A DNA stretch of 47,696 nt from Methylomonas koyamae (lineage in GTDB: Bacteria > Pseudomonadota > Gammaproteobacteria > Methylococcales > Methylomonadaceae): positions 1-47,696 of the forward strand of contig NZ_LUUK01000175.1 of assembly GCF_001644025.1 (NCBI RefSeq), in the 5' to 3' direction. Made by a program: the position numbers and the translations under genes. Shown piece by piece: positions 15,577 to 43,949 of this stretch. The notes under the pieces were generated by a model. That model was not told where the DNA came from. It made no database searches and was given only the letters and a program-made list of their open reading frames with translations. Positions within the stretch are counted from its first letter, which is position 1. Every line of letters starts with the position of its first letter.

Positions 15577-15738
15577 GTCGAAACAAAGGTCAGAGCAAGG
15601 CAAGCAGCAAAGCAACATTGATGCCCATCCCAAAAGTCGGCACGCCACGTGCTTGCTTTTGGCGACAAGTCGCCATTGGTCAGAAAGCACTGCCCTTCGC
15701 GCCGAATCGTCGCCACCGTTTTATTACCCTGTACCATC

Positions 15739-16857
15739 ATGTCCGATTCGCCAGAACCGATACTCCGCAAGTTAAACCGGGAACTAAACCGCTTATCGCT
15801 ATTCGCCGTCGCCGGCTTTCTAATCGGCTTCGCCGGTCTGGCGGTGGCCGGCGGCTGGTGTGCGGCCGGCGTCTGGCTGGCGCAAGCCGGCGCCGGTTTG
15901 TGGTTGATCCGGCAGACCGCCCGGCGACGCTTGGCCTTGAACCGCTTAAATCCGCGCACGCCGCTGTATCGCAACCTCGGCTGGGGTAATCGCCTGACGC
16001 TGTTGCGCGGGGCATTGATCGCGGCCACCGGTGGCTGCTTGTTTTCAGATCCCACCGCGCCGGCCAATCCGTGGCTGCCGGCATTGTGCTACACGCTGGC
16101 CGCGCTGCTGGACCGTTACGACGGCTATGCGGCGCGGCGCTCGGGCCGGGTCAGCCTACTCGGCGCCGAATTGGACCTTCACTTCGACGCACTGGGTTTG
16201 CTGATCGCGCCGCTGCTGGCCGTGCAATGGCAACGCCTGCCTACCGGTTATTTGCTGCTGAGTTTGGCGTTTTACCTATACCGCTGGCTGCTGCAAGCCC
16301 GCGTTCGGCGCGGATTGCCGACATTTCCGTTGCCCGACAATCCACTGCGACGGACGCTGGCCGGCTTTCAGATGGGCTTTGTGGCGCTGACGCTGTGGCC
16401 CGTGCTCGAGCCGGCGTTCAGCCGTCAGGTCAGCACGGCCTTCATGCTGCCGGTGCTGTTCGGCTTCGTCGCCGACTGGCTGGTCGCCAACGGCCGCTGT
16501 ACGGCACGGACTTACACGCAAATCGGCGAACTCGCCGACCGGACGGCGCTGCCGGGCTTGCGCATCGGCCTGATTTTGGCATTGACCTTGGCCGGCGGGT
16601 TCGAGCGGACCGAGGCCGCCGGCCTTAGCGTCGCGCTGGCTTGGTCGGCATCGATTTTACTCGCCGTCGGTTGCGCCGGGCGGCTCGGCGCGTTGGCGAT
16701 ACTGCTGTTGTTCGGCGGCGGCTGGTTGAGCGTAGCGCAACCTGCGCTAGGGCTTGCCATTCTGTTCGCCGCCAGTTGGTTGCTGTTGCTCGGTACCGGC
16801 CGCTACAGCCTGAGCCGCTGGGGCGAAGCCTGGTTGCAACGTTACGTCGGCGCCTGA
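15739..16857 (+). CDS. CDP-alcohol phosphatidyltransferase family membrane enzyme
   Basis: A 372-residue polytopic protein with a perfect CDP-OH-P signature, D-G-x2-A-R-x8-G-x3-D-x3-D, at residues 128-150 (Asp128, Asp146 and Asp150 being metal/base residues). It is longer than phosphatidylglycerophosphate or phosphatidylserine synthases, with additional membrane helices after the catalytic domain. The family moves a phosphoalcohol from a CDP-linked donor to a hydroxyl acceptor; donor and acceptor here are unknown. The start at 15739 is chosen because the basic, soluble N-terminus and first helix begin there. Its stop overlaps the next gene by one base (TGATG), so the two are coupled. Confidence 0.85.
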   Translation: MSDSPEPILRKLNRELNRLSLFAVAGFLIGFAGLAVAGGWCAAGVWLAQAGAGLWLIRQTARRRLALNRLNPRTPLYRNLGWGNRLTLLRGALIAATGGCLFSDPTAPANPWLPALCYTLAALLDRYDGYAARRSGRVSLLGAELDLHFDALGLLIAPLLAVQWQRLPTGYLLLSLAFYLYRWLLQARVRRGLPTFPLPDNPLRRTLAGFQMGFVALTLWPVLEPAFSRQVSTAFMLPVLFGFVADWLVANGRCTARTYTQIGELADRTALPGLRIGLILALTLAGGFERTEAAGLSVALAWSASILLAVGCAGRLGALAILLLFGGGWLSVAQPALGLAILFAASWLLLLGTGRYSLSRWGEAWLQRYVGA

Positions 16858-17855
16858 TGCCGAGATTCTCCGGCTTCAAGCGATTGCTTTGGCCGTTGGC
16901 TCTGGCGCTACTGGCTTGGGTGATAACACAGTTGCCGCTGGCCGCGCTGGCAAGGGCATTCGGCCCAGTGACACTGTCGCAAGCCTTGCTCTGGGGACTA
17001 CTGAATCTGGTGATCGCGCTATTGGCGACCGGCCGCTGGTGGCTGTTTTGCCGGTGCTGCGCGGTGCCGATCCGCTATTGGCCGCTGCTGATCGTGCGCC
17101 AGGCTGGGCAAGCCGTCAGCTTTATCACGCCCGGCCCGCAATTCGGCGGCGAGCCGCTGCAACTTTACTGGCTATGCCGGCGCGGTGATGTGCCGGCAAC
17201 TCAGGCGGTGTTGGCCTTGGGCTTGGATCGCGGGTTCGAGTTATGGATCAACTTCGCGGTGTTAGCGGCGGTACTGGTGGCTTTGCAATTGCCGGCCGGA
17301 GATTTCGCCGGCCACCGGCAACTTGGTCTGGTTTTGCTTGGCGCGGCGTTATTCGCTTTGCCGCTGCTGGCAACATTGGCAACTCGTCATCGGACCGCAC
17401 TCGGTCACATCGGGCGAAAGCTGGTACATGCCTGCCGTTTGCCAGCGTCCGCCCCAGCACCACCCGAGGGTTTCGTCAGCGCCGGTAGCGGCTTCGATAT
17501 TCCAGCCGCGAGCGCGGCTTTGATCTTGTCGCTAGCCGGCTGGGCCGGGCTGCTGGCGGAACTGCGGTTGTTGCTGCATCTGTTGGGACTGCCTGTGGAT
17601 ACCGCATCGTTTCTGACCGTGCTGGCCGCGCTACGTTTGGCGATTCTGTTGCCGCTGCCCGGCGGCATAGGCACCTTGGAAGCCGGCGTGTTGTGGGCCT
17701 TTCAAACCAACGGCTGGCCCGCAGAAGCCGCGGCCGGCCTGATCGCATTGACCCGCTTGCGCGACCTTGCCGCCTTGGCGGTCGGATTCTGCTGCTTAAA
17801 GCTGGGATCCGGCGGCAAACCGGGTGGCGATGCTGGGAAGATGGATCAATTTTAG
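16857..17855 (+). CDS. Flippase-like membrane protein, LPG_synthase_TM (UPF0104) family
   Basis: A 332-residue integral membrane protein with about eight helices and the hallmark ITPGPQFGGEPLQLYWLCR and LPLPGGIGTLEAGVLWAF segments of the family that includes the N-terminal half of MprF and AglD. Members are thought to translocate lipids or lipid-linked precursors. There is no aminoacyl-transferase domain. It is translationally coupled to the CDP-alcohol phosphatidyltransferase, so the pair may make and flip an unusual lipid or lipid-linked intermediate. Confidence 0.85.
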   Translation: MPRFSGFKRLLWPLALALLAWVITQLPLAALARAFGPVTLSQALLWGLLNLVIALLATGRWWLFCRCCAVPIRYWPLLIVRQAGQAVSFITPGPQFGGEPLQLYWLCRRGDVPATQAVLALGLDRGFELWINFAVLAAVLVALQLPAGDFAGHRQLGLVLLGAALFALPLLATLATRHRTALGHIGRKLVHACRLPASAPAPPEGFVSAGSGFDIPAASAALILSLAGWAGLLAELRLLLHLLGLPVDTASFLTVLAALRLAILLPLPGGIGTLEAGVLWAFQTNGWPAEAAAGLIALTRLRDLAALAVGFCCLKLGSGGKPGGDAGKMDQF

Positions 17856-22756: not shown

Positions 22757-23197
22757 ATGGCCCGCAGATCAACGATTGTTTTGACCGTTTTAACTCACTG
22801 CTTATTGACCGCGACCGCACCGGTCGCCCATGCCCACCACGCCTTTTCCGCCGAATTCGACGCCGAAAAGCCGATCGAATTGAAGGGCACCGTGACCAAG
22901 CTGGAATTGGTGAATCCGCATAGCTGGCTGTATCTGGACGTCAAACAAGCCGACGGCAGCAGTAAAAACTGGGGGCTAGAATTCGGCGCGCCGTTCAGCT
23001 TGAAACAAAAAGGCATAACCAAGGCCAGCCTGCCGGTCGGCAGCGAGGTGACGATACAAGGTTTTCGCGCCAAAAACGGCAAGGACTTCGGTTACGCGGT
23101 GACCACGCTGTTATCCGACGGTCGCGCTGTGAAAACCGGCGGCGCTCAGGATGCGCCGGACGCGCAAGCGAATCAGGCCAAGCCGCAAGCGCAATAA
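22757..23197 (+). CDS. Exported DUF6152-family protein
   Basis: 146 residues: a Sec signal peptide (cleavage after Ala-His-Ala near residue 26), then HHAFSAEFDAEKPIELKGTV ... NPHSWLYLDV, the conserved N-terminal His-His and NPHSW motif of DUF6152. The fold looks like a small beta-barrel (an OB-like domain), and the exposed His-His at the mature N-terminus could bind a metal. It heads a cluster of six same-strand genes; the distances are 25, 21, 5 and 2 bases up to the second DUF6644 gene, so this is an operon. Function not established. Confidence 0.8.
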   Translation: MARRSTIVLTVLTHCLLTATAPVAHAHHAFSAEFDAEKPIELKGTVTKLELVNPHSWLYLDVKQADGSSKNWGLEFGAPFSLKQKGITKASLPVGSEVTIQGFRAKNGKDFGYAVTTLLSDGRAVKTGGAQDAPDAQANQAKPQAQ

Positions 23198-23222
23198 GCG
23201 CCGACGATCAGGAGTGAAATCG

Positions 23223-24020
23223 ATGCCCAACCCACACAACGGCCCGTCCTCGCTCAGCATCGGCGTGATGCTGGTCAGCGGTCTGATTTTATTATTCATG
23301 GCGGTCAGCGACGCCGGGGCGGCTAGCGCCAAAATCCCCCGGCTGGCCAACGGCAAGCCGGATTTCTCCGGTATCTGGCAAACCACCAGCGCCGCCGATT
23401 ACGACCTGGAACCTCATAGTAACCGCAAGGATGCGCCGCCCGGCGCCGGCATCGTCGAAGGCCACTATTTGCCGTATTTACCCAAGGCGCTGACGCAAAA
23501 GCAGCAAAACTTCGAGGCCCGCGCCACCAACGATCCGGCCTTGAAAGGTTACACGCTGGGCGTGCCGCGCGGCATTTATTACCCGGAGCCGTTCCAGATC
23601 TTTCAACGCAAGCAGGACTTGACTCAGGTGTTTCAGTTCGGCCATTCGGTCAGAACCATCCACACCGACGGCACCGACCATCCGAAAGACCCTTACGACT
23701 GGTGGCTGGGCGATTCGCGCGGCCGTTGGGACGGCGACACGCTGGTGGTCGACGTCAAGCACTTCAACGACAAGACCTGGCTCGACCGGGCCGGCAATTT
23801 TCACAGCGACGCGCTGCATGTCGTCGAACGCTGGACTTATCTCGATCCGAATACGATCGAATACCGGGCGACTGTCGAAGACCCCAACGTGTTCAGCAAG
23901 CCATGGCAGCTATCGGTGATTTTGTACCGACACCGGGAGAAGGATTTTCAGTTGATCGAAGACTACCGTTTTACGCTGGACTACGACGATGCCTATCCGC
24001 CCAAGCCGAATAAACCCTAA
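23223..24020 (+). CDS. Exported protein of unknown function, paralogue of the next gene
   Basis: 265 residues from the ATG at 23223 (aggag eight bases upstream). The signal peptide or membrane anchor covers about residues 12-34. The mature part has IPRLANGKPDFSGIWQT near its start, then WWLGDSRGRWDGDTLVVDV and VVERWTYLDPNTIEYRATVE. These 'P-D-x-[ST]-G-x-W' and 'G-D-S-R-G-x-W-[DE]-G-[DN]-T-L-V-V-D-V' motifs recur in the following gene. I know such proteins only as uncharacterised neighbours of DUF6152/DUF6644 genes. A beta-rich periplasmic binding or structural role is possible, with no catalytic motif seen. Confidence 0.75.
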   Translation: MPNPHNGPSSLSIGVMLVSGLILLFMAVSDAGAASAKIPRLANGKPDFSGIWQTTSAADYDLEPHSNRKDAPPGAGIVEGHYLPYLPKALTQKQQNFEARATNDPALKGYTLGVPRGIYYPEPFQIFQRKQDLTQVFQFGHSVRTIHTDGTDHPKDPYDWWLGDSRGRWDGDTLVVDVKHFNDKTWLDRAGNFHSDALHVVERWTYLDPNTIEYRATVEDPNVFSKPWQLSVILYRHREKDFQLIEDYRFTLDYDDAYPPKPNKP

Positions 24021-24041
24021 CCGCCGCCAGACGAGGACCTT

Positions 24042-25109
24042 ATGCAACAGATGAATCCCCGCCGCTCGGCGCTGATTTCCGGACTGGCGATAGGCGCGAT
24101 CATCGTCGCCGCGCCAACCGCGCGCGCCGCCGATCAGGCCGGCAAGCCCGAAACCAAGTCGGATACGACCGCGGCGAAACCCGTGCAAACGGCGACTAAA
24201 GCGCTAAAACTGGGCGGCCCCGGCATCGAACAGGAAAGAAGTTTCCCTAAAATCGTCTCCGGCAAATGGACCGGCCCGAAAACCGCCGACGGCCAGCCGG
24301 ATGTGCAAGGCCATTGGTCCAACACCATTGCCAACCACAACAATTTCACCGATCCGCAAGGCGGCATCCTTAACGATCCGAATCCGAACCGGGTCGCCAA
24401 GAGTCCGCGCGAGGAACGGGCGCCGAGCCGGGTCAGCGACCCGGCCGACGGCCAGGTGCCGTTTCAGCCTTGGGCGCTGGAAAAGGTCAAGGATTTTCAA
24501 GCTCACTTCCACGATCCGGTCAAACCCGAATATATAGAGCCGCTGGCCCGTTGCGCGCCGGCCGGCATTCCGAAATCGCTGTATTGGCACGGATACGAGA
24601 TCGGCCAATATCCGGGTTACGTGCTGTTCCAATTCAATTCCGGCACCCGCATCATTCATCTGGACGGCAAGCCGCATCTGCCCGACAACATCAAATTGTG
24701 GAACGGCGATTCGCGCGGCCATTGGGAAGGCAATACCTTGGTGGTGGACGTGACCAACCAAAACGGCAAGGCGCTGTTCGGCCGCTCAGGCGAATTTATC
24801 AGCGAAAATGGCCATATCACCGAACGCTATATCTTCAGCAACGACGGCGACCGCTATACCTATGAAGCGACCCTGACCGATCCCACCGTCTACACCCGGC
24901 CGTTTACGGTGACCGTGCCGGCCCGCAAGTGGACCGCCAAGGACCAACCGAACGGCTGGCATTTCGAAGTGGAACCGGCCAATTACGTCGGCAACGAAAA
25001 GCTCAAGGAGCCTATCCTGGACCAATACGAACGGGTTTGCGCCGAAAACAACGGCGGCTTCGGTCTGGTGGCCGCCGATGCGCCCGCGCCGGAAAGCCCA
25101 AAGAAATAG
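24042..25109 (+). CDS. Exported protein of unknown function, larger paralogue
   Basis: 355 residues. The N-terminus MNPRRSALISGLAIGAIIVA then Ala-rich to ARAAD is a signal peptide with a paired arginine; the following residues are only partly TAT-like, so Sec or TAT export is open. It shares GDSRGHWEGNTLVVDVTNQN and the HITERYIFSNDGDRYTYEAT repeat-like segment with the previous gene, plus ADGQPDVQGHW near residue 80. It has a C-terminal extension with one Cys (ERVCAENNG). No recognised enzyme motif. It lies five bases before a membrane gene, suggesting that the exported pair works with the DUF6644 membrane proteins. Confidence 0.75.
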   Translation: MQQMNPRRSALISGLAIGAIIVAAPTARAADQAGKPETKSDTTAAKPVQTATKALKLGGPGIEQERSFPKIVSGKWTGPKTADGQPDVQGHWSNTIANHNNFTDPQGGILNDPNPNRVAKSPREERAPSRVSDPADGQVPFQPWALEKVKDFQAHFHDPVKPEYIEPLARCAPAGIPKSLYWHGYEIGQYPGYVLFQFNSGTRIIHLDGKPHLPDNIKLWNGDSRGHWEGNTLVVDVTNQNGKALFGRSGEFISENGHITERYIFSNDGDRYTYEATLTDPTVYTRPFTVTVPARKWTAKDQPNGWHFEVEPANYVGNEKLKEPILDQYERVCAENNGGFGLVAADAPAPESPKK

Positions 25110-26088: not shown

Positions 26089-26156
26089 GTCTCCGCTCCT
26101 AACGCGTGCCGTTCCGAATTGCCGGTAGCGGCGCGCGTCTTTTTTGGATTTTTCCG

Positions 26157-26747
26157 ATGCATCATCCATTGTTACCTAAAATGTTACAACGCCCGAGAGC
26201 CATGGGCTGGGCCTGGCTGCTCGTATTGCTCGTTGGCGCTTGCGACGATTCCGCTCGGCAACCTCCGAGCGCGCCGCCAACCGCATTCGTTCCGGTCGCG
26301 ACCCTGCAAGACATCATGACCTCGGTGATCGACCCGAACATCGATTTCGTTTGGAACTCGGTTTCGACGGTCAGCACCGCCAGCGGCACCGAGGAACGTC
26401 GGCCGCAAACCGACCAGGACTGGCTGGCCTTGCGCCAGCACGCATTGATAGTCGCCGAGGCGGCCAACTTGTTATTGGTCGAAAACCGGCCGGTTGCCGC
26501 CGCCAACGCCACGACCTCCAGCGGCGATGCCGAATTGACGCCGTCGGCGATTAAGACGCTGGTCGCCGAACATCGCGACGATTTCGTTACCCGCGGCCAC
26601 GAGTTCCAAGTTGCCGCGTTGGGTTTAATTCGCGCGATAGACGCCAAAAATGCCGACGCGCTGGAAAAAGCCGGCGGCGAAGTCGAACACGCTTGCGAAC
26701 AATGCCATAGCCAGTTTTGGTATCCGGGCGATAATCGGCCCAAGTAA
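26157..26747 (+). CDS. Lipoprotein cytochrome c'-like protein
   Basis: A 196-residue protein. LLVLLVGAC is a lipobox, so Cys29 should be acylated and the protein membrane-anchored on the periplasmic side. The helical body ends with one heme-attachment motif CEQCH (180-184) close to the C-terminus, the arrangement of cytochrome c' and c556. The usual extra C-terminal basic residues are few. It follows the DUF6644 pair by 68 bases in the same direction and gives the cluster a redox partner. Covalent heme makes a role in electron transfer or NO/ligand binding plausible. Confidence 0.8.
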   Translation: MHHPLLPKMLQRPRAMGWAWLLVLLVGACDDSARQPPSAPPTAFVPVATLQDIMTSVIDPNIDFVWNSVSTVSTASGTEERRPQTDQDWLALRQHALIVAEAANLLLVENRPVAAANATTSSGDAELTPSAIKTLVAEHRDDFVTRGHEFQVAALGLIRAIDAKNADALEKAGGEVEHACEQCHSQFWYPGDNRPK

Positions 26748-27157: not shown

Positions 27158-27814
27158 ATGAGCCATCCCAGCGTCACACTACTTACCCGCACCCGCATTC
27201 CTACCGCATACGGCGAGTTTCAGCTGCACTATTACAGCAACAACCAAGACGATAAGGAGCATCTGGCCTTGGTGATTGGCGATCCGGCCGGGCGGGACGA
27301 CGTGTTGGTCCGCTTGCATTCGGAATGCTTTACCGGCGACGTGCTGGGTTCGCGGCGCTGCGACTGCGGCGAACAATTGGATCGATCGCTGCAATTGCTG
27401 GCGGAGCAGGGAACCGGCATCCTGCTGTACCTGCGCCAGGAAGGCCGCGGCATCGGCCTGCTGCAAAAATTGCGCGCTTACAATTTACAAGACCAGGGTT
27501 ACGATACCCTCGACGCCAATCTGTTGCTAGGCCATCGCGCCGACGAGCGCGATTACTCGTTGGCGGCGCGGATACTGGAAGACCTGGGCGTCCAATCGCT
27601 CCGGCTGATCACCAACAATCCGCTAAAAATCCAGGCGCTGCGCGCCGCCGGGCTGACCGTCAGCGGCCGCCAGCCGCTGCAAACGCCGGTACACCCGGAC
27701 AACGCCGGTTATTTACTGACCAAGGCGCGGCGCATGGATCATTTGCTGGAATTGGACTTGCCGGCCGACGCCAGCCTAATCCGGGCCGATCATGCCGCTG
27801 AATCAACGGATTGA
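27158..27814 (+). CDS. ribA: GTP cyclohydrolase II
   Basis: 218 residues, the full length of stand-alone RibA. It opens the imidazole ring of GTP, releasing formate and pyrophosphate, to give 2,5-diamino-6-ribosylamino-4(3H)-pyrimidinone 5'-phosphate. The zinc cysteines are in CFTGDVLGSRRCDCGEQ; the catalytic/nucleotide loop is YLRQEGRGIGL, followed by DTLDANLLLGHRADERDY and LITNNPLK. All key residues are present. It does not sit with riboflavin genes but with a RibD reductase domain, a dehydrogenase, a PTPS-like protein and a glycosyltransferase, which points to a dedicated pathway. No FMN riboswitch is visible upstream. A complete RibBA also exists in this window. Confidence 0.9.
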   Translation: MSHPSVTLLTRTRIPTAYGEFQLHYYSNNQDDKEHLALVIGDPAGRDDVLVRLHSECFTGDVLGSRRCDCGEQLDRSLQLLAEQGTGILLYLRQEGRGIGLLQKLRAYNLQDQGYDTLDANLLLGHRADERDYSLAARILEDLGVQSLRLITNNPLKIQALRAAGLTVSGRQPLQTPVHPDNAGYLLTKARRMDHLLELDLPADASLIRADHAAESTD

Positions 27815-28505
27815 GCGCTGGCTAGCGCTGCAAAGCGCGGTGACTAAGCCGGCCCAGCGGCCGTTCGTCACCTTGAGCTACGCGCAAAGCTGGGACGGCA
27901 GCATTACCACCCGCCGGGGCGAATCGCTGGGCTTGAGCGGCAGCGAATCCTTGCGCTTGACCCATCAGTTACGTAGTTTGCACGACGGCATCTTGGTCGG
28001 CATCGGCACCGTGTTGGCCGACGACCCGCAACTAACCGTGCGCGAATGGCGCGGCGCCAATCCGCAGCCCATCGTCTTGGACAGCCAATTACGCATGCCG
28101 CCCGCTGCCCGGTTGTGCCAACGCGCCGACAAAACCTGTTGGGTGTTGACCCGCCGCAGCGGCCCGCGGCCGTTTGCCGGAAACGCCGAAATCATCGCGA
28201 TGGAGCGCGACGACGACGGCCGGGTGGATTTGGCCGAAGCACTGCAGGTATTGTGGCAAAAAGGCATCCGCACGCTGATGGTCGAGGGCGGAAGCCGGAT
28301 TATCACCGCGTTCTTGCGGGCGCAATTGGCCGACGCGTTGGTGTTGACCGTCGCGCCGACCTTGGTCGGCGGCCTGAAAGGCGTCGGCGATCTGAATCCT
28401 TGCGTGGGTCGATTACCCCGTATCAAACCCTGGCACTCGCAAATGCTCGGCGACGACCTGGTGATGTGGGGCTCGTTGCAATATCGCGACGCGTTGGCCG
28501 GATGA
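27792..28505 (+). CDS. RibD C-terminal reductase-domain protein
   Basis: A 237-residue protein of the dihydrofolate-reductase-like RibD_C family. SYAQSWDGSITT, LSGSESLRLTHQLRSLHDGI, VGIGTVLADDPQLTVR and MVEGGSRIITAFL are the NADPH- and substrate-binding signatures. No deaminase domain precedes it, so it resembles the fungal/archaeal enzymes that reduce the ribosyl side chain directly on the GTP cyclohydrolase II product. It overlaps ribA by 23 bases and the next gene by four, implying stoichiometric expression. Together with RibA it could make a 2,5-diamino-6-ribitylamino-pyrimidinone phosphate for a non-flavin product. Confidence 0.85.
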   Translation: MPLNQRIERWLALQSAVTKPAQRPFVTLSYAQSWDGSITTRRGESLGLSGSESLRLTHQLRSLHDGILVGIGTVLADDPQLTVREWRGANPQPIVLDSQLRMPPAARLCQRADKTCWVLTRRSGPRPFAGNAEIIAMERDDDGRVDLAEALQVLWQKGIRTLMVEGGSRIITAFLRAQLADALVLTVAPTLVGGLKGVGDLNPCVGRLPRIKPWHSQMLGDDLVMWGSLQYRDALAG

Positions 28506-29542
28506 GCTTGCGCCAATTGTGGTTCGTCGCGCCCGGCGAAGTCCAAGTGCGGGAAACGCCATTGCCGGTTTTGGCCGCCGGGCAAGTGTTGGTCAAAGCC
28601 GAGTGTTCGGCGATCAGCGCCGGCAGCGAATTGTTGGTCTATCGCGGCCGGTTGCCTGGGGATTTGGCGCTGGACGCTACCCTGGCTTCGTTGCAACGTT
28701 CTACCGCTTATCCGTTGCCATACGGCTATGCCTGCGTCGGCCGCGTCGAGCGGATCGGCAATGGCGTTTCGCCGGACTGGCTGGATCGGCGGGTGTTTTC
28801 GTTTCAACCGCACGCTAGCCACTTCGTCGCCGAAACCTCGCAACTGTTGGCGATCCCGGACGACGTCTGCAGCGAGGCGGCGGTCTTTCTCGCCAACGCC
28901 GAAACCGCCGTTAACCTGATTCACGACGGCGCTCCGGCGCTGGGCGAGCGAGTCGCGGTGTGCGGCTTGGGCGTGGTCGGTCTACTGCTGACCGGGATTT
29001 TGGCGCAATTTCCGCTGGGCCTCCTGGTCGGTCTGGACGGCATTGCCGCCCGGCGCGCCAAGGCCTCGGCCTTGGGCATGCACGCCAGCTACGACCCATC
29101 GCGGGACGCCGATTGGCGGGCGCTGCGCGCCGATCTGAATTTGCCGGTCGATTTAAGCCGGCCCGCCGAATCCGGCGCCGATTTGATTTTCGAAGTCAGC
29201 GGCGCGCCGGCCGCGTTGAACGGTGCGCTTGAATTGGCCGGTTACGCCGGGCGCATCGTGGTCGGCAGTTGGTACGGCAGCCAACCGGCGCCGCTGCAAC
29301 TGGGCGGCGGCGCGCACCGCCACCGTTTGCGGATAATGACCAGCCAAGTCAGCACGATCACGCCGGAATTGAGCGGCCGCTGGGACAAGGCTCGCCGCTT
29401 CGAAACGGCCTGGACCGCGATTCGCCGTCTGCAACCGCAAGCCTGGATTAGCCATCGGATGCCGCTGGAGCAAGCCGCCACGCTGTACCGCAATCTCGAC
29501 CAAACGCCTGGCGGCGTGTTGCAGGCCGTGTTCCGCTACTGA
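28502..29542 (+). CDS. Medium-chain dehydrogenase/reductase of zinc-type ADH superfamily
   Basis: 346 residues from the ATG at 28502 (four-base overlap with the gene before). GroES-like N-terminal domain, then a Rossmann fold with VAVCGLGVVGLLLTGILA. The usual catalytic zinc motif C-G-x-C-G-T-D reads CSAISAGSELLVYRG, as in BchC-like and related MDR proteins, so catalytic zinc may be absent or differently bound. The structural-zinc cysteine loop is missing. Other pieces are YACVGRVERIG and ADLIFEVSGAPAALNGALEL. It would oxidise or reduce an alcohol/carbonyl, plausibly on the ribityl side chain made by its neighbours; that is inference from position. Confidence 0.8.
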   Translation: MSLRQLWFVAPGEVQVRETPLPVLAAGQVLVKAECSAISAGSELLVYRGRLPGDLALDATLASLQRSTAYPLPYGYACVGRVERIGNGVSPDWLDRRVFSFQPHASHFVAETSQLLAIPDDVCSEAAVFLANAETAVNLIHDGAPALGERVAVCGLGVVGLLLTGILAQFPLGLLVGLDGIAARRAKASALGMHASYDPSRDADWRALRADLNLPVDLSRPAESGADLIFEVSGAPAALNGALELAGYAGRIVVGSWYGSQPAPLQLGGGAHRHRLRIMTSQVSTITPELSGRWDKARRFETAWTAIRRLQPQAWISHRMPLEQAATLYRNLDQTPGGVLQAVFRY

Positions 29543-29622
29543 GCGCGGCACCGGAAAACCGTATTTGGTCCACTTGTCGCGTTTCGAACCTTGACCCTAA
29601 CCGCCTCATCGGAGAACCCATT

Positions 29623-30000
29623 ATGTACAGCGTAGCCGTCAGCCGCGACTTCATCGCCAACCACTATTTGATCGGCGGCGATTGGGGCAGCGAAAATCAA
29701 GCGCATGCCCATCATTACATCGCCGAAGTGCGGATCGACGGCGAGACCTTGGATCGCCACGGCTATCTGGTCGATATCGTCGCTATCGAAGCGGCCTTGG
29801 ACGCGGCGGTCGCCGACTTTCGCGACCGCCTGCTCAACGATTGCCCCGAGTTCGCCGGCCTGAATCCGAGCATCGAGCATTTCAGCCGAATCCTCTGCCA
29901 GCGCCTGTTCGCCGAAATCCAGCTACCCGGCAACGGCCGGCTACGCGTCAAGCTTTGGGAAAATCCGCAATGCTGGGCCGCTTTCAGCCGGACATTTTGA
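29623..30000 (+). CDS. 6-pyruvoyltetrahydropterin synthase/QueD-family protein lacking the catalytic cysteine
   Basis: 125 residues, ggag ribosome site upstream. Three zinc histidines are recognisable: His14 (DFIANHYL) and His28/His30 (QAHAHHY); GYLVDIVAIEAAL is the family's second signature and IEHFSRILC the third. The C-x3-H-G-H catalytic cysteine is replaced by Glu24, and the motif reads H-A-H. QueD and PTPS need that cysteine, so this protein is likely to carry out a different reaction, or lyase chemistry on another pterin or pyrimidine. It is 80 bases downstream of the dehydrogenase gene and eight bases upstream of the glycosyltransferase gene. Confidence 0.8.
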   Translation: MYSVAVSRDFIANHYLIGGDWGSENQAHAHHYIAEVRIDGETLDRHGYLVDIVAIEAALDAAVADFRDRLLNDCPEFAGLNPSIEHFSRILCQRLFAEIQLPGNGRLRVKLWENPQCWAAFSRTF

Positions 30001-30007
30001 GCGGACG

Positions 30008-31096
30008 ATGCGGATCGGCCTGCTGATTTACGGCGATATCCAAACCCTGAGCGGCGGCTATTTCTACAATCGGCAATTGCTGGATTATCTGCGCGGCCAA
30101 GGCGACAGCATCGAAATCGTCAGCTTGCCCTATCGCCGCTATGCCAGCCACTTGGCCGACAATGTCGCCGATGCACTGCTGAAACGCATCGCCGCTGCCG
30201 AATTGGACCTGTTAATCCAAGATGCCATGACCCATCCGTCGCTATTTTGGCTGAACCGGCGGCTGGCGCGGCGGCTGAATCTGCCGCTGATCGCGCTGGT
30301 GCATTTGCTGAGCGGCGTCGAAAACGCCGGCAAACCCTTGGCTTGGCTATACCGCGCGGTCGAGCGCCGCTATTTGCAATCGGTATCCGGCATCATCGCC
30401 AACAGCCGGACCACTTTGGCGCAAATCAGCCGAATGCTGGACGGCCGCTTGCCGCCGCATTGCATTGCGCCGCCGGCCGCCGACCATATCGCCACGGTTG
30501 CCGCCGATACCTTAACCGAACGCGCGCGACAAGCCGGGCCGTTGCGCATCCTGGCGGTCGGCAACGTCATCGAACGCAAGGGCCTGCAGGTGTTGGTGGA
30601 AGCCCTCGGCCGCTTGCCGCGCCACGATTACCGCGCCACGCTGGTCGGCCGCTTGGACATGGAACCGGCCTACGTGAACCAGCTGCGGCAAACCATCCGC
30701 CGCCATGCGTTGAACGACCGAATCGAACTGGCCGGCGCGGTGGTCGGCGCCGACTTGGCCGAGCTTTACCGAACGCATCAGTTGATGGTGCTGCCGTCGG
30801 CCTACGAAAGCTACGGCATCGTCTACGCCGAAGCCTTGCGCTTCGGCCTGCCGGCCGTTGCCACCACCGGCGGCGCGGCCCGGGAAATCATTCGCCCCGG
30901 CGAAACCGGCTTCCTGATCGCACCGGGGGACTCTGCCGAACTGGCCGCGCTGCTGCAAAACCTGCATCGCGACCGCGACCGGCTGACCAAGCTGAGCCAT
31001 AACGCCCTAACCGCCTCCGCCCAGCTACCGAGTTGGCACGAATGCGGCGCGACCGTCCGGCGGTTTTTGCGGGAATCCTTGGCGAGCAGGTTTTGA
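30008..31096 (+). CDS. GT4-family glycosyltransferase
   Basis: A 362-residue GT-B retaining glycosyltransferase. The N-terminal half has GDIQTLSGGYFYNRQLLDYL (acceptor/G-rich loop). The C-terminal donor domain has RILAVGNVIERKGLQVLVEA, LVGRLDMEP and the E-x7-E motif in ESYGIVYAE, followed by GLPAVATTGGAAREII. Eight bases separate it from the PTPS-like gene, so it is probably the last gene of the ribA cluster and could glycosylate the pathway product, as pterin glycosyltransferases do in cyanobacteria. Donor sugar unknown. Confidence 0.87.
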   Translation: MRIGLLIYGDIQTLSGGYFYNRQLLDYLRGQGDSIEIVSLPYRRYASHLADNVADALLKRIAAAELDLLIQDAMTHPSLFWLNRRLARRLNLPLIALVHLLSGVENAGKPLAWLYRAVERRYLQSVSGIIANSRTTLAQISRMLDGRLPPHCIAPPAADHIATVAADTLTERARQAGPLRILAVGNVIERKGLQVLVEALGRLPRHDYRATLVGRLDMEPAYVNQLRQTIRRHALNDRIELAGAVVGADLAELYRTHQLMVLPSAYESYGIVYAEALRFGLPAVATTGGAAREIIRPGETGFLIAPGDSAELAALLQNLHRDRDRLTKLSHNALTASAQLPSWHECGATVRRFLRESLASRF

Positions 31097-31442: not shown

Positions 31443-32147
31443 ATGAATACCTGGCGCATCGCCGCGGCATTGACGCTGTTGGCCTCAATTGGCATTGCAA
31501 CTCACTATGCGAAGGAAGTATACGTGGCCCGCCGCGATACACCGGCCTTGGTCGGTCTGGCTTGGCAACGCTACGGGCACGGCATTGCACTGTCCGACTT
31601 ATCAAAAAACGAGAAATTGCTGCTGATTGCGGTGGAAGATCCCGCGTTTTATCGCCATCACGGCGTGGATCTCAATACGCCGGGCGCTGGAATGACGACA
31701 ATCACCCAAGCTTTAGTCAAATTGTTGTATTTTCCAGGCGGCTTTAATAAAGGGGTGGCCAAGATCCGTCAAACGCTCATCGCCCGTTACGCGTTAGATC
31801 CGCTGATTCCCAAAAACGAGCAACTGGAATTGCTGTTGAACGTCGCCTATCTCGGCAGTCAGGACGGGCAGGCTATTCGCGGCTTTGAGACTGCCGCCTC
31901 GGCGTATTTTAATAAGCCTTTCAAGGCGTTGTCGGAGACCGAATTTCAATCGCTGGTTGCGATGCTGGTCGCCCCCGACCGCTTAATCCCCGGAACCCCG
32001 GATCACGCGCAACGGATGCGTCGAATAGACGATTACTTAACCGGAAAATATCAACCAACCGGCGTGCTGGATGTCGAGTACGATGGAAATAATCAACAGA
32101 GCGTCGGACAACGGGGTTTGATGGCCTTTCTTCGATTGATTACCTAA
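31443..32147 (+). CDS. GT51 peptidoglycan transglycosylase-domain protein (MtgA-like)
   Basis: 234 residues: one N-terminal membrane helix (residues 5-21), then a GT51 lysozyme-like domain with LIAVEDPAFYRHHGVDL (catalytic Glu in the E-D-x-x-F-x-x-H-x-G motif), GAGMTTITQALVKLL (variant of G-A-S-T-I-T-Q-Q), KIRQTLIARYAL and LELLLNVAYLG. No transpeptidase domain. It should polymerise lipid II glycan chains or be a diverged relative; the Ala-Ser to Gly-Met change in the second motif is unusual. It stands alone. Confidence 0.85.
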   Translation: MNTWRIAAALTLLASIGIATHYAKEVYVARRDTPALVGLAWQRYGHGIALSDLSKNEKLLLIAVEDPAFYRHHGVDLNTPGAGMTTITQALVKLLYFPGGFNKGVAKIRQTLIARYALDPLIPKNEQLELLLNVAYLGSQDGQAIRGFETAASAYFNKPFKALSETEFQSLVAMLVAPDRLIPGTPDHAQRMRRIDDYLTGKYQPTGVLDVEYDGNNQQSVGQRGLMAFLRLIT

Positions 32148-38578: not shown

Positions 38579-39148
38579 ATGAGCAAATTAAATGTAGTGG
38601 TGGTTTCCGGCAACCTGGGATCCCCGTCAAAAACCCTGGTATTAGCTGAACAGATATTGGCCGAATTGGAATTACTTACGCCGATAAAATCCACGATTTT
38701 TCAGCTTGCGGAATGGGCGGCTATATTCGGTCCGGCTCGACACCCAGGAGAATTGAACGATGAAGCCCGCAAGGTATTGCAAACCATAGCCTCGGCCGAT
38801 CTGCTGATTGCAGTTAGTCCGGTTTATAAAGGTTCCTATACCGGCGCTTTCAAGCATTTAATCGACTTTATCGATCCTAATGCTTTGGTCGGCGTGCCGG
38901 TGATTTTGGCCGCTACTGGCGGGGGCTACAAACACGCGTTGGTCATCGAGCATCAACTGCGTCCATTGTTTGCATTCTTTGGCGCAAACGCCTTGCCGGT
39001 TGGCATTTATGCGGCGGAGCAGGATTACGATGGCCAACGTTTTGCCGAACCCGTCGTACTGGAACGCATCTCGGCGGCGGCAAAACAGGCCGTTGATGCC
39101 GCCCAAACCCGCATTCACTCTCTTCAAACCACTCAGAAAATCGCATAA
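38579..39148 (+). CDS. msuE: NAD(P)H-dependent FMN reductase (MsuE/SfnF-like)
   Basis: A 189-residue flavodoxin-fold reductase. VVVSGNLGSPSKTL binds FMN phosphate, and AVSPVYKGSYTGAFKHLIDF is the conserved flavin-ring loop of MsuE/SsuE-type reductases; VGVPVILAATGGGYKHAL is the third signature. It supplies free FMNH2 to two-component monooxygenases, fitting the three such enzymes downstream. The start has no strong ribosome site, but the porin stop lies only 52 bases upstream. SfnF of Pseudomonas would be an equally good name; only the reductase function is secure. Confidence 0.85.
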   Translation: MSKLNVVVVSGNLGSPSKTLVLAEQILAELELLTPIKSTIFQLAEWAAIFGPARHPGELNDEARKVLQTIASADLLIAVSPVYKGSYTGAFKHLIDFIDPNALVGVPVILAATGGGYKHALVIEHQLRPLFAFFGANALPVGIYAAEQDYDGQRFAEPVVLERISAAAKQAVDAAQTRIHSLQTTQKIA

Positions 39149-39160
39149 GGAAATTCCACC

Positions 39161-40342
39161 ATGGCTCAACATGATTACGAAAAAATTCGCACCGACATTC
39201 GCAAACTGGTCGATGAGGTGATACGACCCAACGCTGAAAAAACCGATGAAGGCGTATTCCCACGGGAAAATCTGAATGCCTTGGCCAAGGAAGGTTGGAA
39301 CGGTGTGCTAATTTCAAAGGAATACGGCGGGTTGGGCTTGGACCACGTGGCTTTCTCGATAGTTGCCGAGGAAATTGGCCGTGCCTGCGCTTCCACCGGA
39401 CTGGTATACGTGATGCACACCGGTGCCGCGCAAACCATCAATCTGTTCGGAAATCACGATCAGAAGGAACGTTGGCTGAAACCGGCGCGCGACGGTCTGG
39501 TCGGCACTTACTCAACCAGCGAAAAAGCGTCTGGCGGACACTGGTGGTTCAATTTCAGCGAAGCATCTCGAGACGGCGACAGCCACTACTTGTTAAACGC
39601 GGAAAAATCCTTCACCACCAGTGCCGGCCAGGCGGACTATTACATTTTTCAAACGCGATCGCCGGGTGCCAAGGGGCCGACCGACATCAGCTTTTTTATC
39701 GTCGATTCCAAGTTGCCCGGCATTAGCCACGGTATCTGGGAGGCCTTGGGTGTCCGGGGGAATCACAGCGGCCCGATTACCTATAAGGACGTGCGGGTGG
39801 AAACGCGCAACCGTTTGGGCGAAGAAGGCCAAGGCAAGGACATCGTCTACCACGGCGTATCTCCGGTTTATCTGATCGGCTTGGGAGCGGTGTGGCACGG
39901 CGTGGCACGTGCTGCCCTGGAAAGAGCATCGGAACATTTATCCGCCAACATACATCGCGACTTTAATCGCAAACTTTCGGACTACCAAGTGCTGAGACAA
40001 CAATTGGGCGAATCCAAAGTGTTGATCGAGAGCCTTGGTCCGTGGCAACGCGAACTGGCACGGAAACTGGACGATTTACAGGCTAATGGAGAACCACAAG
40101 GCCAAATCTTGATTCCGCTGACCGAATTCAAGGTACATGCCGCCGAAGTGGCGAATATCTCGGCGCGCAACGCGCTGGATGTCAGTGGCGGTTACGGCTA
40201 CAAAAAAGGTCCCATCGAACGCATTTTCCGCGACGCCCGCGCCGGTATCGGTATGGGGCCGTCCAACAATATCGCGCGCGAATGGATAGGCAAAGTTCTG
40301 GTCGGGTTACCGCTGGAATTGTTCGAGGCTGGTGGCGAATAA
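39161..40342 (+). CDS. Acyl-CoA dehydrogenase-family flavoprotein of the organosulfur cluster (SfnA-like position)
   Basis: A 393-residue acyl-CoA-dehydrogenase fold protein (aagga before the ATG). GLGLDHVAFSIVAEEIGRAC and AEKSFTTSAGQADYYIFQT are helical and strand domain signatures; the C-terminal part has FKVHAAEVANISARNALDVS then GGYGYKKGPIERIFRDARAG, including the R-D-A-R motif. The catalytic base typical of fatty-acyl enzymes is not clear to me. In sulfone/sulfonate gene sets such proteins act either as flavin monooxygenases or as true dehydrogenases. It lies between the FMN reductase and SfnG genes, so a redox step on a sulfur compound is the likely role. Exact reaction unknown. Confidence 0.75.
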   Translation: MAQHDYEKIRTDIRKLVDEVIRPNAEKTDEGVFPRENLNALAKEGWNGVLISKEYGGLGLDHVAFSIVAEEIGRACASTGLVYVMHTGAAQTINLFGNHDQKERWLKPARDGLVGTYSTSEKASGGHWWFNFSEASRDGDSHYLLNAEKSFTTSAGQADYYIFQTRSPGAKGPTDISFFIVDSKLPGISHGIWEALGVRGNHSGPITYKDVRVETRNRLGEEGQGKDIVYHGVSPVYLIGLGAVWHGVARAALERASEHLSANIHRDFNRKLSDYQVLRQQLGESKVLIESLGPWQRELARKLDDLQANGEPQGQILIPLTEFKVHAAEVANISARNALDVSGGYGYKKGPIERIFRDARAGIGMGPSNNIAREWIGKVLVGLPLELFEAGGE

Positions 40343-40426
40343 CCGGCCAACCATCCATCTTATCTGCCCGGATGCAGCCCATGCGGGGCGTCCGGACTCT
40401 TTTTGCGCGATAAAGGAGCCACTATT

Positions 40427-41530
40427 GTGAGTCTGCCATCTTCAAATCAACTCTCTCCGATTAAGTTTGCCTACTGGGTACCCAACGTCAGTGGTGGATT
40501 AATCATCAGTAATATCGAACAGCGCACCAGTTGGGATATTGACTATAACCGCAAGCTGGCAAGGATTGCCGAAGAAGCCGGCTTTGAATACGCGCTCAGT
40601 CAAATTCGCTTTACGGCCGGTTACGGCGCCGAGTACCAGCACGAGTCGATCTCGTTCAGTCATGCGTTATTGGAGTCCACCTCAACGCTGAAAGTGATCG
40701 CGGCGGTTTTGCCCGGCCCTTGGCACCCGGCAGTGCTAGCCAAACAAATTGCCACCATCGATCACTTAAGCGGGGGACGTGTTGCCGTGAATATTGTCAG
40801 CGGCTGGTTTCGAGGCGAATTTACGGCCATCGGCGAACACTGGCTGGAGCACGATGAGCGCTATCGGCGCTCGGAAGAATTTATCAGAGCCATTAAAGGC
40901 ATTTGGACCGCGGATAACTTTAATTTCCAAGGCGATTTTTACCGCTTTCACGATTACTCGTTGAAGCCAAAACCGCTACAACAGCCACATCCCGAGATTT
41001 TCCAGGGCGGCAGTTCGCGCGCGGCCCGGGATATGGCATCGCGAGTATCGGATTGGTATTTCACTAACGGCAATACTGTGGAAGGCATCAAAGCCCAAGT
41101 GGACGATATTCGCGCCAAGGCCTCGGCAAACGGGCATTCGGTCAAAATTGGCGTCAACGCCTTTGTCATCGCTCGCGATACCGAAGCGGAAGCCAAGGCC
41201 GTGTTGCACGAAATTATCGACAAAGCCAATCCGGAGGCCGTGAAGGCTTTCAGCCATGAAGTGCAGCAAGCCGGTAAAGCGTCTCCGGAGGGGGAAGGTA
41301 ATTGGGCTAAATCCACTTTAGAAGACTTGGTGCAATACAACGACGGTTTTAAGACTAACTTGATCGGTACCCCCGAGCAAATTGCCGAGCGTATCGTGGC
41401 ATTGAAACATATCGGAGTTGATTTGGTGCTGACCGGCTTTCTGCACTTTCAAGAAGAAGTGGCCTATTTTGGCAAACATGTGCTGCCGCTGGTCAGACAA
41501 TTGGAAAACGAACAATCGGTGGCTGCCTGA
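40427..41530 (+). CDS. sfnG: Dimethyl-sulfone monooxygenase SfnG
   Basis: 367 residues, bacterial-luciferase-like (LLM) FMNH2-dependent monooxygenase closely resembling Pseudomonas SfnG over its whole length: FAYWVPNVSGGLIISNIEQR, LSQIRFTAGYGAEYQHES, LPGPWHPAVLAKQIATIDHL, GGRVAVNIVSGWFRGEF, FQGGSSRAARDMASRVSDWY and NLIGTPEQIAERIVALK. SfnG cleaves dimethyl sulfone to methanesulfinate and formaldehyde. I take the GTG at 40427, with AAGGAG nine bases upstream; a TTG at 40403 is less likely. Its stop overlaps the next start (TGATG). Confidence 0.9.
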   Translation: MSLPSSNQLSPIKFAYWVPNVSGGLIISNIEQRTSWDIDYNRKLARIAEEAGFEYALSQIRFTAGYGAEYQHESISFSHALLESTSTLKVIAAVLPGPWHPAVLAKQIATIDHLSGGRVAVNIVSGWFRGEFTAIGEHWLEHDERYRRSEEFIRAIKGIWTADNFNFQGDFYRFHDYSLKPKPLQQPHPEIFQGGSSRAARDMASRVSDWYFTNGNTVEGIKAQVDDIRAKASANGHSVKIGVNAFVIARDTEAEAKAVLHEIIDKANPEAVKAFSHEVQQAGKASPEGEGNWAKSTLEDLVQYNDGFKTNLIGTPEQIAERIVALKHIGVDLVLTGFLHFQEEVAYFGKHVLPLVRQLENEQSVAA

Positions 41531-42711
41531 TGGGCACTAAGGTGGCGAATTGCCAAGTACAAGCCGTGTTCGAGCAGGCCGAGCGGCTTGCCGCCGATTT
41601 CGCCAAAACCGCGATCGAAAGAGATCGTTTGGGCGGTACGGCAAAGGCGGAGCGCGACCAGCTGCGCGCCAGCGGGCTGTTGAAACTCATCATTCCCGGA
41701 GAATTTGGAGGCTTTGGTTTTAATTGGCATGACACCTTGCGTGTCGTTCGGATTATTTCCCGAGCAGACAGTTCATTGGGCCACTTGTTTGGCTTTCAGC
41801 ATTTACTACTGGCGACCGTGAGACTGTTCGGCGACCAATGGCGGCACTTTTACCAAGAAACGGCCGAACACAATTGGTTTTGGGGGAATACCTTAAATCC
41901 GTTGGATACCCGCGCGAAATTGATTGCGGATGGCGCCGATTGGTTGATAGACGGCCATAAGAGCTTTTGCTCTGGCGCCTTGGATGCCGATTATCTGATC
42001 GTTTCGGCATTACGCGAGCCCGACGGCAAGCTTTTTATAGCCGCGTTACCGCCGAACCGCCCAGGCATTACCCGCTTTGCCGATTGGAACAACATGGGGC
42101 AGCGCCAGACTGACAGCGGCAGTGTCGCGTTCGACCATGTGCGTGTCTACGATCACGAAATCCTGCGTAACCCAGGACCGTTGGGAAGTGTCTTCGCGAC
42201 TCTTAGGCCGTTGATCGCGCAGCTTGTCCTAACCAATATTTACCTAGGTATAGCCGAAGGTGCGTTGGCCGAGGCGAGGCAATATACCCGCTCGCAAAGT
42301 CGGGCATGGTTTCTATCCGGCGTGGAAAGTGCCACGCAAGACCCTTATACCTTAAAGAAATATGGCGAGTTTTGGGTGGATATCAATGCCGCGGCGTTGG
42401 CGACAGACTATGCCGCGCAAGCCTTGGATCTGGCGTGGAGCAAAGAGGACGCTTTGACCGTGCAGGAGCGCGCCGATACTGCGATTGCCGCCGCCACTGC
42501 CAAAGTGTTGGCAACCCGCTCCGGATTGGATGTGACGCAGCGCTTGTTCGAAGTAACCGGTGCGAGAGCAACCACCGCTCAAGCCGGCTTCGATCGCTTC
42601 TGGCGTAATCTGCGCACCCATTCGTTGCACGATCCGGTTGATTACAAATTGGCGGATTTGGGGGCGTGGGTATTGAACGGCCAAGCCCCTAAACCCAGCT
42701 TTTACTCATGA
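41530..42711 (+). CDS. sfnB: DszC/SfnB-type FMNH2-dependent monooxygenase (acyl-CoA dehydrogenase fold)
   Basis: 393 residues. The family's conserved pieces are [57 protein letters not shown] and, near the C-terminus, [20 protein letters not shown], a DszC/SfnB hallmark. DszC oxidises dibenzothiophene to its sulfone; relatives such as MsuC oxidise methanesulfinate to methanesulfonate. Here the second reaction would bridge SfnG to the SsuD-like enzyme. Placement with one-base overlap after sfnG supports this. The exact subfamily (SfnB or MsuC) cannot be told by eye. Confidence 0.8.
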
Positions 42712-43949
42712 GACACGCTATGAACGATAACAACATCGAAAAGGCGCTGAACGCTATACATACGGGTCAGTTTGTCGTGGTGGTCGACGATTTGGATCGC
42801 GAGAATGAAGGCGATTTAATCATCGCCGCCGAAGCAATGACGCCGGAAAAAATGGCATTCATGGTGCGTCATACCAGCGGCATAGTCTGCGTAGCTTTAA
42901 CCGAGGAACGCGCTCAGGCCTTACAACTGCCGCCGATGGTGGCCCGGAATAGCGATGCTCATCATACCGCGTTCACCGTCTCGGTCGATCTGAAACTCGG
43001 CACCACAACCGGTATTTCTGCGAATGACCGTAGCGCCACGGTTAAGGCATTGGCCGACCCCGCGAGCAAGCCGGACGATTTTTCCAGACCCGGTCACGTG
43101 TTTCCGTTGATCGCTAAGCCTCAAGGCGTACTGCAACGACCGGGTCATACTGAAGCCGCTTGCGACCTGACGCGCTTGGCCGGTTTGCAACCGTCCGGCG
43201 TATTGTGCGAGCTGGTCAATGATGCCGGAAGTATCTTGCGAGGTGAAGCCCTTATTGAATTTGCCCGACATTATGATTTGCCGCTACTCTCGATAGCGGA
43301 ACTCATCGCCTACCGGCGACGTAGCGAAAAGTTGATTGAATGGGTTGCCCAAGCCCGAATGCCCACGGAAGCCGGCATCTTCGGAGTACATGTCTACCGT
43401 TCAATTTTGGACGGCTCGGAACATCTTGCCCTGGTCAAAGGCGAGATTGCCGGCCGCGAAAACGTGCTGGTCCGGGTGCATTCCGAGTGTCTGACCGGCG
43501 ATGTACTCGGATCGTTGCGTTGCGATTGCGGCAATCAACTGAAAATGGCGCTAATGCAAATCGCCCAAGCTGGAGCCGGCGTGTTAGTGTATTTGCGCGG
43601 CCACGAAGGCCGAGGCATCGGATTAGCCCATAAAATCCAGGCTTACGGCCTGCAAGACTTGGGGCGCGATACCTTGCAGGCTAATCTGGATCTCGGCCTG
43701 CCAGCCGATGCCCGCCAATACGACATCGGCGCACAAATCCTCACGCATCTCGGGGTTAACAGCTTATTACTGATGAGCAACAATCCCGCCAAATTCACCG
43801 AACTGATGGGGTATCCACTGAAAATCGCTGGTCGGGTGCCGTTGGAACCCAGGCCGAATCCCGAGAATCTGCGTTATCTGCGCACCAAGACTGAAAAGAT
43901 GGGGCATTTACGGGACATAGACAGCTTGCTGGAGGTGAATAGCGTATGA
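42708..43949 (+). CDS. ribBA: Bifunctional 3,4-dihydroxy-2-butanone-4-phosphate synthase / GTP cyclohydrolase II
   Basis: 413 residues. The N-terminal half (to about 205) has the DHBP synthase signatures [37 protein letters not shown] and [16 protein letters not shown]. The C-terminal half is GTP cyclohydrolase II with zinc cysteines in [35 protein letters not shown] and LLMSNNPAK. Both halves look complete, unlike many proteobacterial RibBA proteins with a dead cyclohydrolase half. The start overlaps the previous stop by four bases (ATGA) and the end overlaps the next start likewise. Encoding the first steps of both riboflavin branches inside a flavin-consuming operon would raise FMN supply when sulfur is scarce. 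Confidence 0.9.

Follow-up and report, generated by a model that had tools for sequence, protein, structure and literature searches.

A cassette of five genes at positions 27,158 to 31,096 of a 47,696-nucleotide stretch of Methylomonas koyamae DNA (contig NZ_LUUK01000175.1, our contig C175; genome size, 5.4 Mb; hereafter, the window) appears, from the comparison of loci, to belong to a real and conserved module that is bigger than five genes and is a variant of GTP-derived pterin-type pathways. We propose that this is a dedicated biosynthetic module set apart from vitamin synthesis, leading from 2,5-diamino-6-ribosylamino-4(3H)-pyrimidinone 5'-phosphate (DARPP) through a dihydropterin to a glycoside that is perhaps attached to the membrane, and we give this proposal as a whole about an even chance. 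The module was found in methanotrophs, other gammaproteobacteria, rhizobia, Streptomyces, Chloroflexota and haloarchaea. Its combination of swappable, unrelated first enzymes with a linked membrane part opens three aspects of a hidden group of GTP-derived metabolites to direct testing: their entry compound, ring chemistry and export.

A tightly packed five-gene cassette recurs in distant genomes

All five genes lie on the forward strand. The first encodes RibA, a GTP cyclohydrolase II (27158-27814; PF00925, 3.2e-67; TIGR00505, 250 bits against a cut-off of 205.85), and is followed by genes for RIBR, a stand-alone RibD_C reductase with no deaminase domain (27792-28505; PF01872, 7e-42), an MDR-type dehydrogenase that resembles BchC and polyol dehydrogenases and lacks the usual zinc motifs (28502-29542; PF00107, 2.7e-09), a PTPS-fold protein in which Glu24 replaces the catalytic Cys (29623-30000; PF01242, 3.1e-23) and a GT4 glycosyltransferase (30008-31096; PF00534, 7.4e-30). 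These Pfam matches bear out the initial annotation, which had placed five closely spaced genes here from the letters and open reading frames alone: the RibA and reductase frames overlap by 23 nucleotides, the reductase and MDR genes overlap in ATGA, and 7 nucleotides separate the PTPS-like and GT4 genes. GTP cyclohydrolase II is recognized by three zinc cysteines and a catalytic Tyr; the cassette RibA contains CFTGDVLGSRRCDCG and RAYNLQDQG and, in a motif alignment, retains Tyr at the catalytic position. The reductase passes TIGR00227 (152.1 bits against 150.15), and its closest solved chain is the DARPP reductase 6p8c (3.9e-36), with B. subtilis RibD 2b3z and 2azn just behind.

A genome-neighbourhood search, which had been put forward as a check on the annotation, demonstrated that the gene neighbourhood recurs. 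Of the family's 201 genomes, 23 contain a relative of the PTPS-like protein at E <=1.4e-42, and the remaining 8 of 31 matches were weak. We fetched 20 of the 22 family loci besides the window, and 12 of these 20 carry the complete set in unchanged order. In five others, all from genus g11 (L050-L054), RibA and the reductase form one open frame of ~450 amino acids that is followed by MDR, PTPS-like and methyltransferase genes, with no GT4. Contig ends cut two of the 20 loci, and a GT4 gene is present in 14. A genome of the same species (G107) does not carry the cassette, which is thus an accessory trait. Across the class the cassette is rare, occurring in 4 of 369 genomes with our own included, and at phylum level the MDR profile matched 8 of 398 genomes at E <=1e-40 (own included), with five of these eight matches confined to roughly the first 190 positions.

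A pattern search of species genomes yielded 442 relatives of the PTPS-like protein, the best 80 of which are mostly gammaproteobacterial, plus Chloroflexota, one Cohnella and one Verrucomicrobiia bin. Module profiles were counted in the loci of these best 80 of 442, many of which are short, and in the 44 among them that span at least 15 kb. Counts were, for the 80 and the 44 loci respectively, 80 and 44 for PTPS, 77 and 44 for MDR, 68 and 44 for the reductase, 67 and 43 for GT4, 60 and 39 for a membrane protein of the LPG_synthase_TM family, 58 and 40 for a CDP-alcohol phosphotransferase, 53 and 37 for RibA, 47 and 34 for a methyltransferase, and 36 and 28 for a sulfatase-like protein. None of 20 control regions (16 kb each, from eight cassette-bearing genomes) was matched by any profile. 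Since the profiles were built from the same loci, and the loci were picked by PTPS patterns, these counts are descriptive and do not constitute a test. No methyltransferase profile matched in the window; for the g11 type, a search of the whole own genome, which lacked a positive control, likewise gave no match, and the search for the other type was confined to the window. One cluster of locus genes (c9) was discarded because it looks like an artefact of frames opposite the PTPS gene. The cassette is also present on a contig titled as a Klebsiella pneumoniae metagenome-assembled genome (L107), a title that is probably a binning or naming error.

Unrelated first enzymes point to DARPP as the entry compound

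Plasmid records extended the comparison to more distant hosts. Thirty records had an MDR match at 1e-20 and 27 loci were fetched; two with an MDR match only (L171 and L172) were dropped, so that 10 loci from haloarchaea and 15 from bacteria remained. In four of the 10 haloarchaeal loci (three Haloarcula and one Natrarchaeobaculum), the MDR gene overlaps a gene annotated as GTP cyclohydrolase IIa, an enzyme unrelated to RibA. The RibA of Streptomyces fungicidicus has Met at the position of the window's Tyr, and a creatininase-family gene adjoins it. A Met-variant RibA of this kind in S. coelicolor stops at a formylated intermediate. The Sinorhizobium creatininase-family protein BrbF is described as stripping the formyl group to yield DARPP (PMC9478397), and a creatininase-family gene also lies a few kb off in two Haloarcula loci. 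RibA, GTP cyclohydrolase IIa, and a Met-variant RibA paired with a creatininase-family protein thus all reach DARPP, which makes it likely that DARPP is the compound that enters the module.

The distribution of the reductase suggests what happens next. Its profile matched 12 of the 15 bacterial plasmid loci and none of the 10 haloarchaeal ones. Archaea reduce DARPP ahead of deamination whereas bacteria deaminate first, so that a separate reductase would be required in bacteria alone. The presence of the reductase in bacterial clusters and its absence from haloarchaeal clusters thus suggest that the 2-amino group is kept, as it is in a pterin. This pattern is as expected if, as the comparison suggests, the cassette reductase serves DARPP before deamination. 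The earlier idea that GTP is opened and a ribityl chain then formed is strengthened by the haloarchaeal and Streptomyces enzyme swaps, as well as by the single-frame RibA-reductase of five loci.

The plasmid loci hold several further features. Within L146 (8991-10461), a hypothetical protein and an IS5 transposase follow the GTP cyclohydrolase IIa and MDR genes, and there is no PTPS match. A cytochrome b gene adjoins the cluster RibD gene in L156, L158, L160 and L161 and could possibly encode an electron carrier for that RibD. An FkbM-family methyltransferase is encoded within clusters L158, L160 and L162, and in L162 genes for an inositol monophosphatase and for a PfkB kinase lie close by.

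The cassette genes are not the housekeeping copies

The genome encodes four GTP cyclohydrolase II domains: that of the cassette, an intact stand-alone enzyme on C163, and two within RibBA proteins. One RibBA is the complete copy that the initial annotation had reported elsewhere in the window (42708-43949; 627 bits against a cut-off of 569). The other lies on C173 (L004, G000 C173:10100-13579), and its cyclohydrolase half is degenerate, with two of the three zinc cysteines gone, so that riboflavin synthesis would rely on the C163 RibA or another copy. A full RibD is also encoded on C173 and FolE is encoded on C67, and C31 has a further PTPS-family gene that is assumed to be QueD.

The cassette genes are therefore not sole copies, as they might have proved to be, and the separate full RibD and intact RibA rule out a housekeeping role in riboflavin synthesis. 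These copies, together with the recurring neighbourhood, support the previous judgement that the cassette probably does not serve flavin synthesis. Alternatively, the cassette could be a surplus set of riboflavin genes or could belong to F420 synthesis: the RibA and RibD_C families are indeed present, and an unpublished link between PTPS-IV and archaeal F420 is quoted in PMC5041015. However, no later riboflavin gene was seen in the cassette, and no CofH match was found in the genome at E 0.001, a result by which an F420 role was ruled out. We consider this explanation remote.

The PTPS-like and MDR proteins depart from their characterized families

In 20 of 20 aligned rows, the PTPS-like protein retains His14, His28, His30 and Glu113 and has Glu24 at the position of the catalytic Cys. 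Its earlier description as PTPS-like is thus right about the fold, which PF01242 recognizes, but it is not a canonical PTPS. The PTPS-I (QueD) motif CxxxHGH reads ENQAHAH in the window protein, C-x3-HxH occurs in none of the loci of the best 80 of the 442 relatives, and the QueD model gives 39.9 bits, below its cut-off of 89.25; a canonical QueD identity was ruled out by the failed motif. Alignment revealed that the PTPS-II motif CxxxxxHGH is likewise absent and that the PTPS-III motif ExxHGH is replaced by ExxxHAH, which is one residue longer and has no HGH. At the place of the PTPS-IV signature FGPAQ, the window protein has WGSEN and its relatives have WG[SA]EN, and in haloarchaeal members GPEG or GQEG takes its place; the three signature kinds share one gene context. 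We treat the window protein as a putative sister group of PTPS-IV that shares its gene context.

The nearest published description of such a context is the AGeNNT network paper of 2017, which reported PF00925 and PF01872 near PTPS-IV (FGPAQ) proteins as previously unrecognised (PMC5445326). A PTPS-fold protein adjoins the same two families in both cases, and FGPAQ proteins in the plasmid records occur in the same order of MDR, PTPS, GT4 and methyltransferase genes. Unlike FGPAQ proteins, the window protein has WGSEN and keeps the HxH zinc pair. The section of that paper on PTPS-IV proposes no pathway and does not name the MDR, GT4 or membrane genes, and the relevant parts of PMC5445326 and PMC5041015 leave the role of this PTPS-family branch open.

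The divergence of the PTPS-like protein bears on the nature of the product. Its best solved match is SCO6650 (PDB 3d7j; E 1.8e-13). This crystallised relative reportedly lacks PTPS activity, and the window protein has neither a Cys at the catalytic position nor the customary Asp-His pair (a pair assigned by eye). Both points would fit a pyrimidine or other non-pterin product, with the PTPS-fold protein cleaving the oxidised chain and no ring closure to a pterin. Yet the Glu that anchors the pterin and the zinc histidines are invariant in all 20 rows, and a 5-amino group beside a ketone would be expected to close, and we regard a non-pterin product as improbable.

Tetrahydromethanopterin is needed by methylotrophs, and a branch that supplies 6-hydroxymethyl-dihydropterin to it or to folate would be another use for a PTPS-fold protein. 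PTPS-III enzymes use Glu for such a role (PMC5041015), but their ExxHGH motif differs from the ExxxHxH found here. Furthermore, FolE is encoded in the genome and the cassette is absent from 12 of 21 examined genomes of the genus, including one of the same species. The presence of FolE and the patchy distribution ruled out a folate role, and such a branch is very improbable.

Zinc-dependent MDR alcohol dehydrogenases are marked by a catalytic zinc Cys and a GHE motif. The cassette MDR protein fails both, with SAISAGSE and YGYACVG at those places (read by eye). It is closest to the BchC, butanediol dehydrogenase and polyol dehydrogenase families and falls short of the BchC model TIGR01202 (46.2 bits against a cut-off of 291). 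Neither the PTPS-like nor the MDR protein reached a curated NCBIfam cut-off. Trees of the two proteins (48 rows each) recovered the same two groups with full support, the PTPS tree with a long-branch warning.

Membrane genes accompany glycosyltransferase-bearing cassettes

The five genes first annotated stand, but their extent fell short of the module: three more of its genes, at 13942-17855, lie 9.3 kb upstream of the cassette. A CDP-alcohol phosphotransferase with a complete motif is encoded on the forward strand at 15739-16857 (PF01066, 2.4e-13; module profile, 378 bits; the ATG lies inside the open reading frame 15649-16857). It is followed on the same strand by a flippase-like membrane protein of the LPG_synthase_TM family at 16857-17855 (PF03706, 6.9e-26; passes TIGR00374; module profile, 300 bits; ATG inside the open reading frame 16641-17855). 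On the reverse strand, 13942-15690 (start provisional) encodes a sulfatase-like membrane protein of the alkaline-phosphatase superfamily (PF00884, 4.5e-07; module profile, 690 bits). The DxxDGxxAR...GxxxDxxxD motif is intact in the window's CDP-alcohol enzyme and in 54 of the 55 members of its cluster (c5). The flippase-like gene has a single match in its own genome, the only one searched genome-wide for it.

We assessed co-occurrence in 41 genomes chosen from the 201, all at least 90% complete, a limit that excluded the incomplete cassette-bearing genomes G064, G076 and G106. Genome-wide, the CDP-alcohol enzyme of the window was found in 15 of 15 genomes with GT4-bearing cassettes, 0 of 5 with the GT4-less g11 cassette and 0 of 21 with no cassette; the sulfatase-like protein was found in 14 of 15, 0 of 5 and 0 of 21, respectively. 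The placement of G142 in the GT4-bearing group rests on a contig-end fragment (L068, assumed to be on the same contig). For the CDP-alcohol enzyme, the Fisher p value of the GT4-cassette group against the no-cassette group was 1.8e-10, which is overstated because the genomes are related. These counts indicate that the membrane genes accompany the GT4-bearing cassette.

The initial annotation had the pathway end in a pyrimidine or pteridine glycoside. The glycosyltransferase gene stands, but the annotation overlooked a membrane, phospholipid-type part, and the end product may therefore be something other than a soluble glycoside. It could still be that DARPP enters a route to a soluble pterin glycoside, and that the CDP-alcohol, flippase-like and sulfatase-like genes form a separate envelope-lipid pathway that travels along. 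The distance between the two parts would suit this explanation, at 9.3 kb in the window and ~75 kb in G014, and so would the five g11 cassettes, which are without membrane genes. In G177, G041 and G142 the parts lie on separate contigs, which may reflect assembly breaks. Against it stand the genome-wide counts of the CDP-alcohol enzyme (15 of 15 genomes versus 0 of 21) and the finding of this enzyme in plasmid clusters too, in 10 of the 15 from bacteria and 6 of the 10 from haloarchaea; we think a separate lipid pathway unlikely.

A proposed route from GTP to a glycosylated pterin

In the pathway we propose, RibA would open GTP to give DARPP, and the stand-alone reductase would act before deamination to give the 2-amino ribityl compound; both steps have the support of the comparison of loci. 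The MDR enzyme would then oxidise one ribityl hydroxyl. If that hydroxyl is at C2', the ketone would be the intermediate of the GTP cyclohydrolase I Amadori rearrangement and would close with the 5-amino group to 7,8-dihydroneopterin phosphate, so that the reductase and dehydrogenase together would form a redox bypass of the Amadori step. The Glu-for-Cys PTPS-fold protein may bind the 2-amino-4-oxo ring and either aid closure or trim the side chain. GT4 would attach a sugar, with a methyltransferase acting too in many relatives. Finally, the CDP-alcohol phosphotransferase, flippase-like and sulfatase-like proteins may couple the glycoside with a phospholipid and, at the membrane, transport or transfer it. 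The comparisons support the gene set, its unity and entry through DARPP, and we infer the reduction of the ribosyl to the ribityl chain, the hydroxyl oxidation, closure to the dihydropterin, glycosylation and membrane attachment. A pterin product seems to us slightly favoured, while membrane attachment is more tentative and somewhat short of even.

Several observations weigh against this pathway. It infers its pterin ring, the carbon that is oxidised, the sugar and the link to lipid, and FolE would make plain dihydroneopterin phosphate available more simply. RibA is missing from 7 of the 44 long loci, L047 among the 20 family loci carries the other four genes without a RibA match, and the reductase is missing from three bacterial plasmid loci (L159, L163 and L169, the S. 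fungicidicus, Neorhizobium and Arthrobacter clusters); housekeeping enzymes would need to fill in where either is missing. Of the four loci with GTP cyclohydrolase IIa, three are closely related to one another. Furthermore, the closest solved relatives of the reductase fail to distinguish DARPP reductases from RibD.

Elements of the proposed pathway have possible precedents. The toxoflavin cluster uses a GTP cyclohydrolase II (ToxB) and a RibD-type enzyme (ToxE) outside flavin synthesis, and the pterin glycosides of cyanobacteria and green sulfur bacteria carry a sugar on the pterin. GTP cyclohydrolase I converts GTP to dihydroneopterin phosphate, as proposed here, and the Chlamydia route, composed of RibA and TrpF, shares its RibA start with the window module; in contrast to both, a reductase and a dehydrogenase would here replace the Amadori step. 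The archaeal riboflavin start (GTP cyclohydrolase III and ArfB) also leads from GTP to DARPP (PMC9478397), but the module would branch from there to MDR and PTPS enzymes. We found no description of the whole module in the open full-text PMC literature, which leaves subscription papers mostly outside, and one may exist there. As far as its relevant passages go, a 2026 review of bacterial pterin signalling describes how pterins cross the membrane as unknown, with no efflux system identified (PMC13259868). It is doubtful, though conceivable, that bacteria and archaea use the module to anchor a glycosylated, reduced pterin in the membrane as a pterin phospholipid. Such a compound would derive from the riboflavin intermediate DARPP through a reductase-dehydrogenase bypass of the GTP cyclohydrolase I rearrangement, be shaped by a Glu-dependent PTPS homolog and be carried to the outside by dedicated flippase-like and headgroup-transferase-like proteins.

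Other genes in the window

The outer neighbours of the cassette, a cytochrome c'-like gene (26106-26747) and a transglycosylase gene (31443-32147), had no tblastn match in the 20 family loci. Three open reading frames at 22757-25109 have clustered relatives only in a same-genus locus (L037), and those of 289 and 355 amino acids are without a Pfam match. The window RibBA (42708-43949) sits within a sulfone/alkanesulfonate monooxygenase set (38579-45085) that includes the flavin mononucleotide (FMN) reductase MsuE, the dimethylsulfone monooxygenase SfnG, a DszC/SfnB-like protein and an alkanesulfonate monooxygenase, and it may be a dedicated source of FMN for sulfur scavenging that depends on FMNH2.

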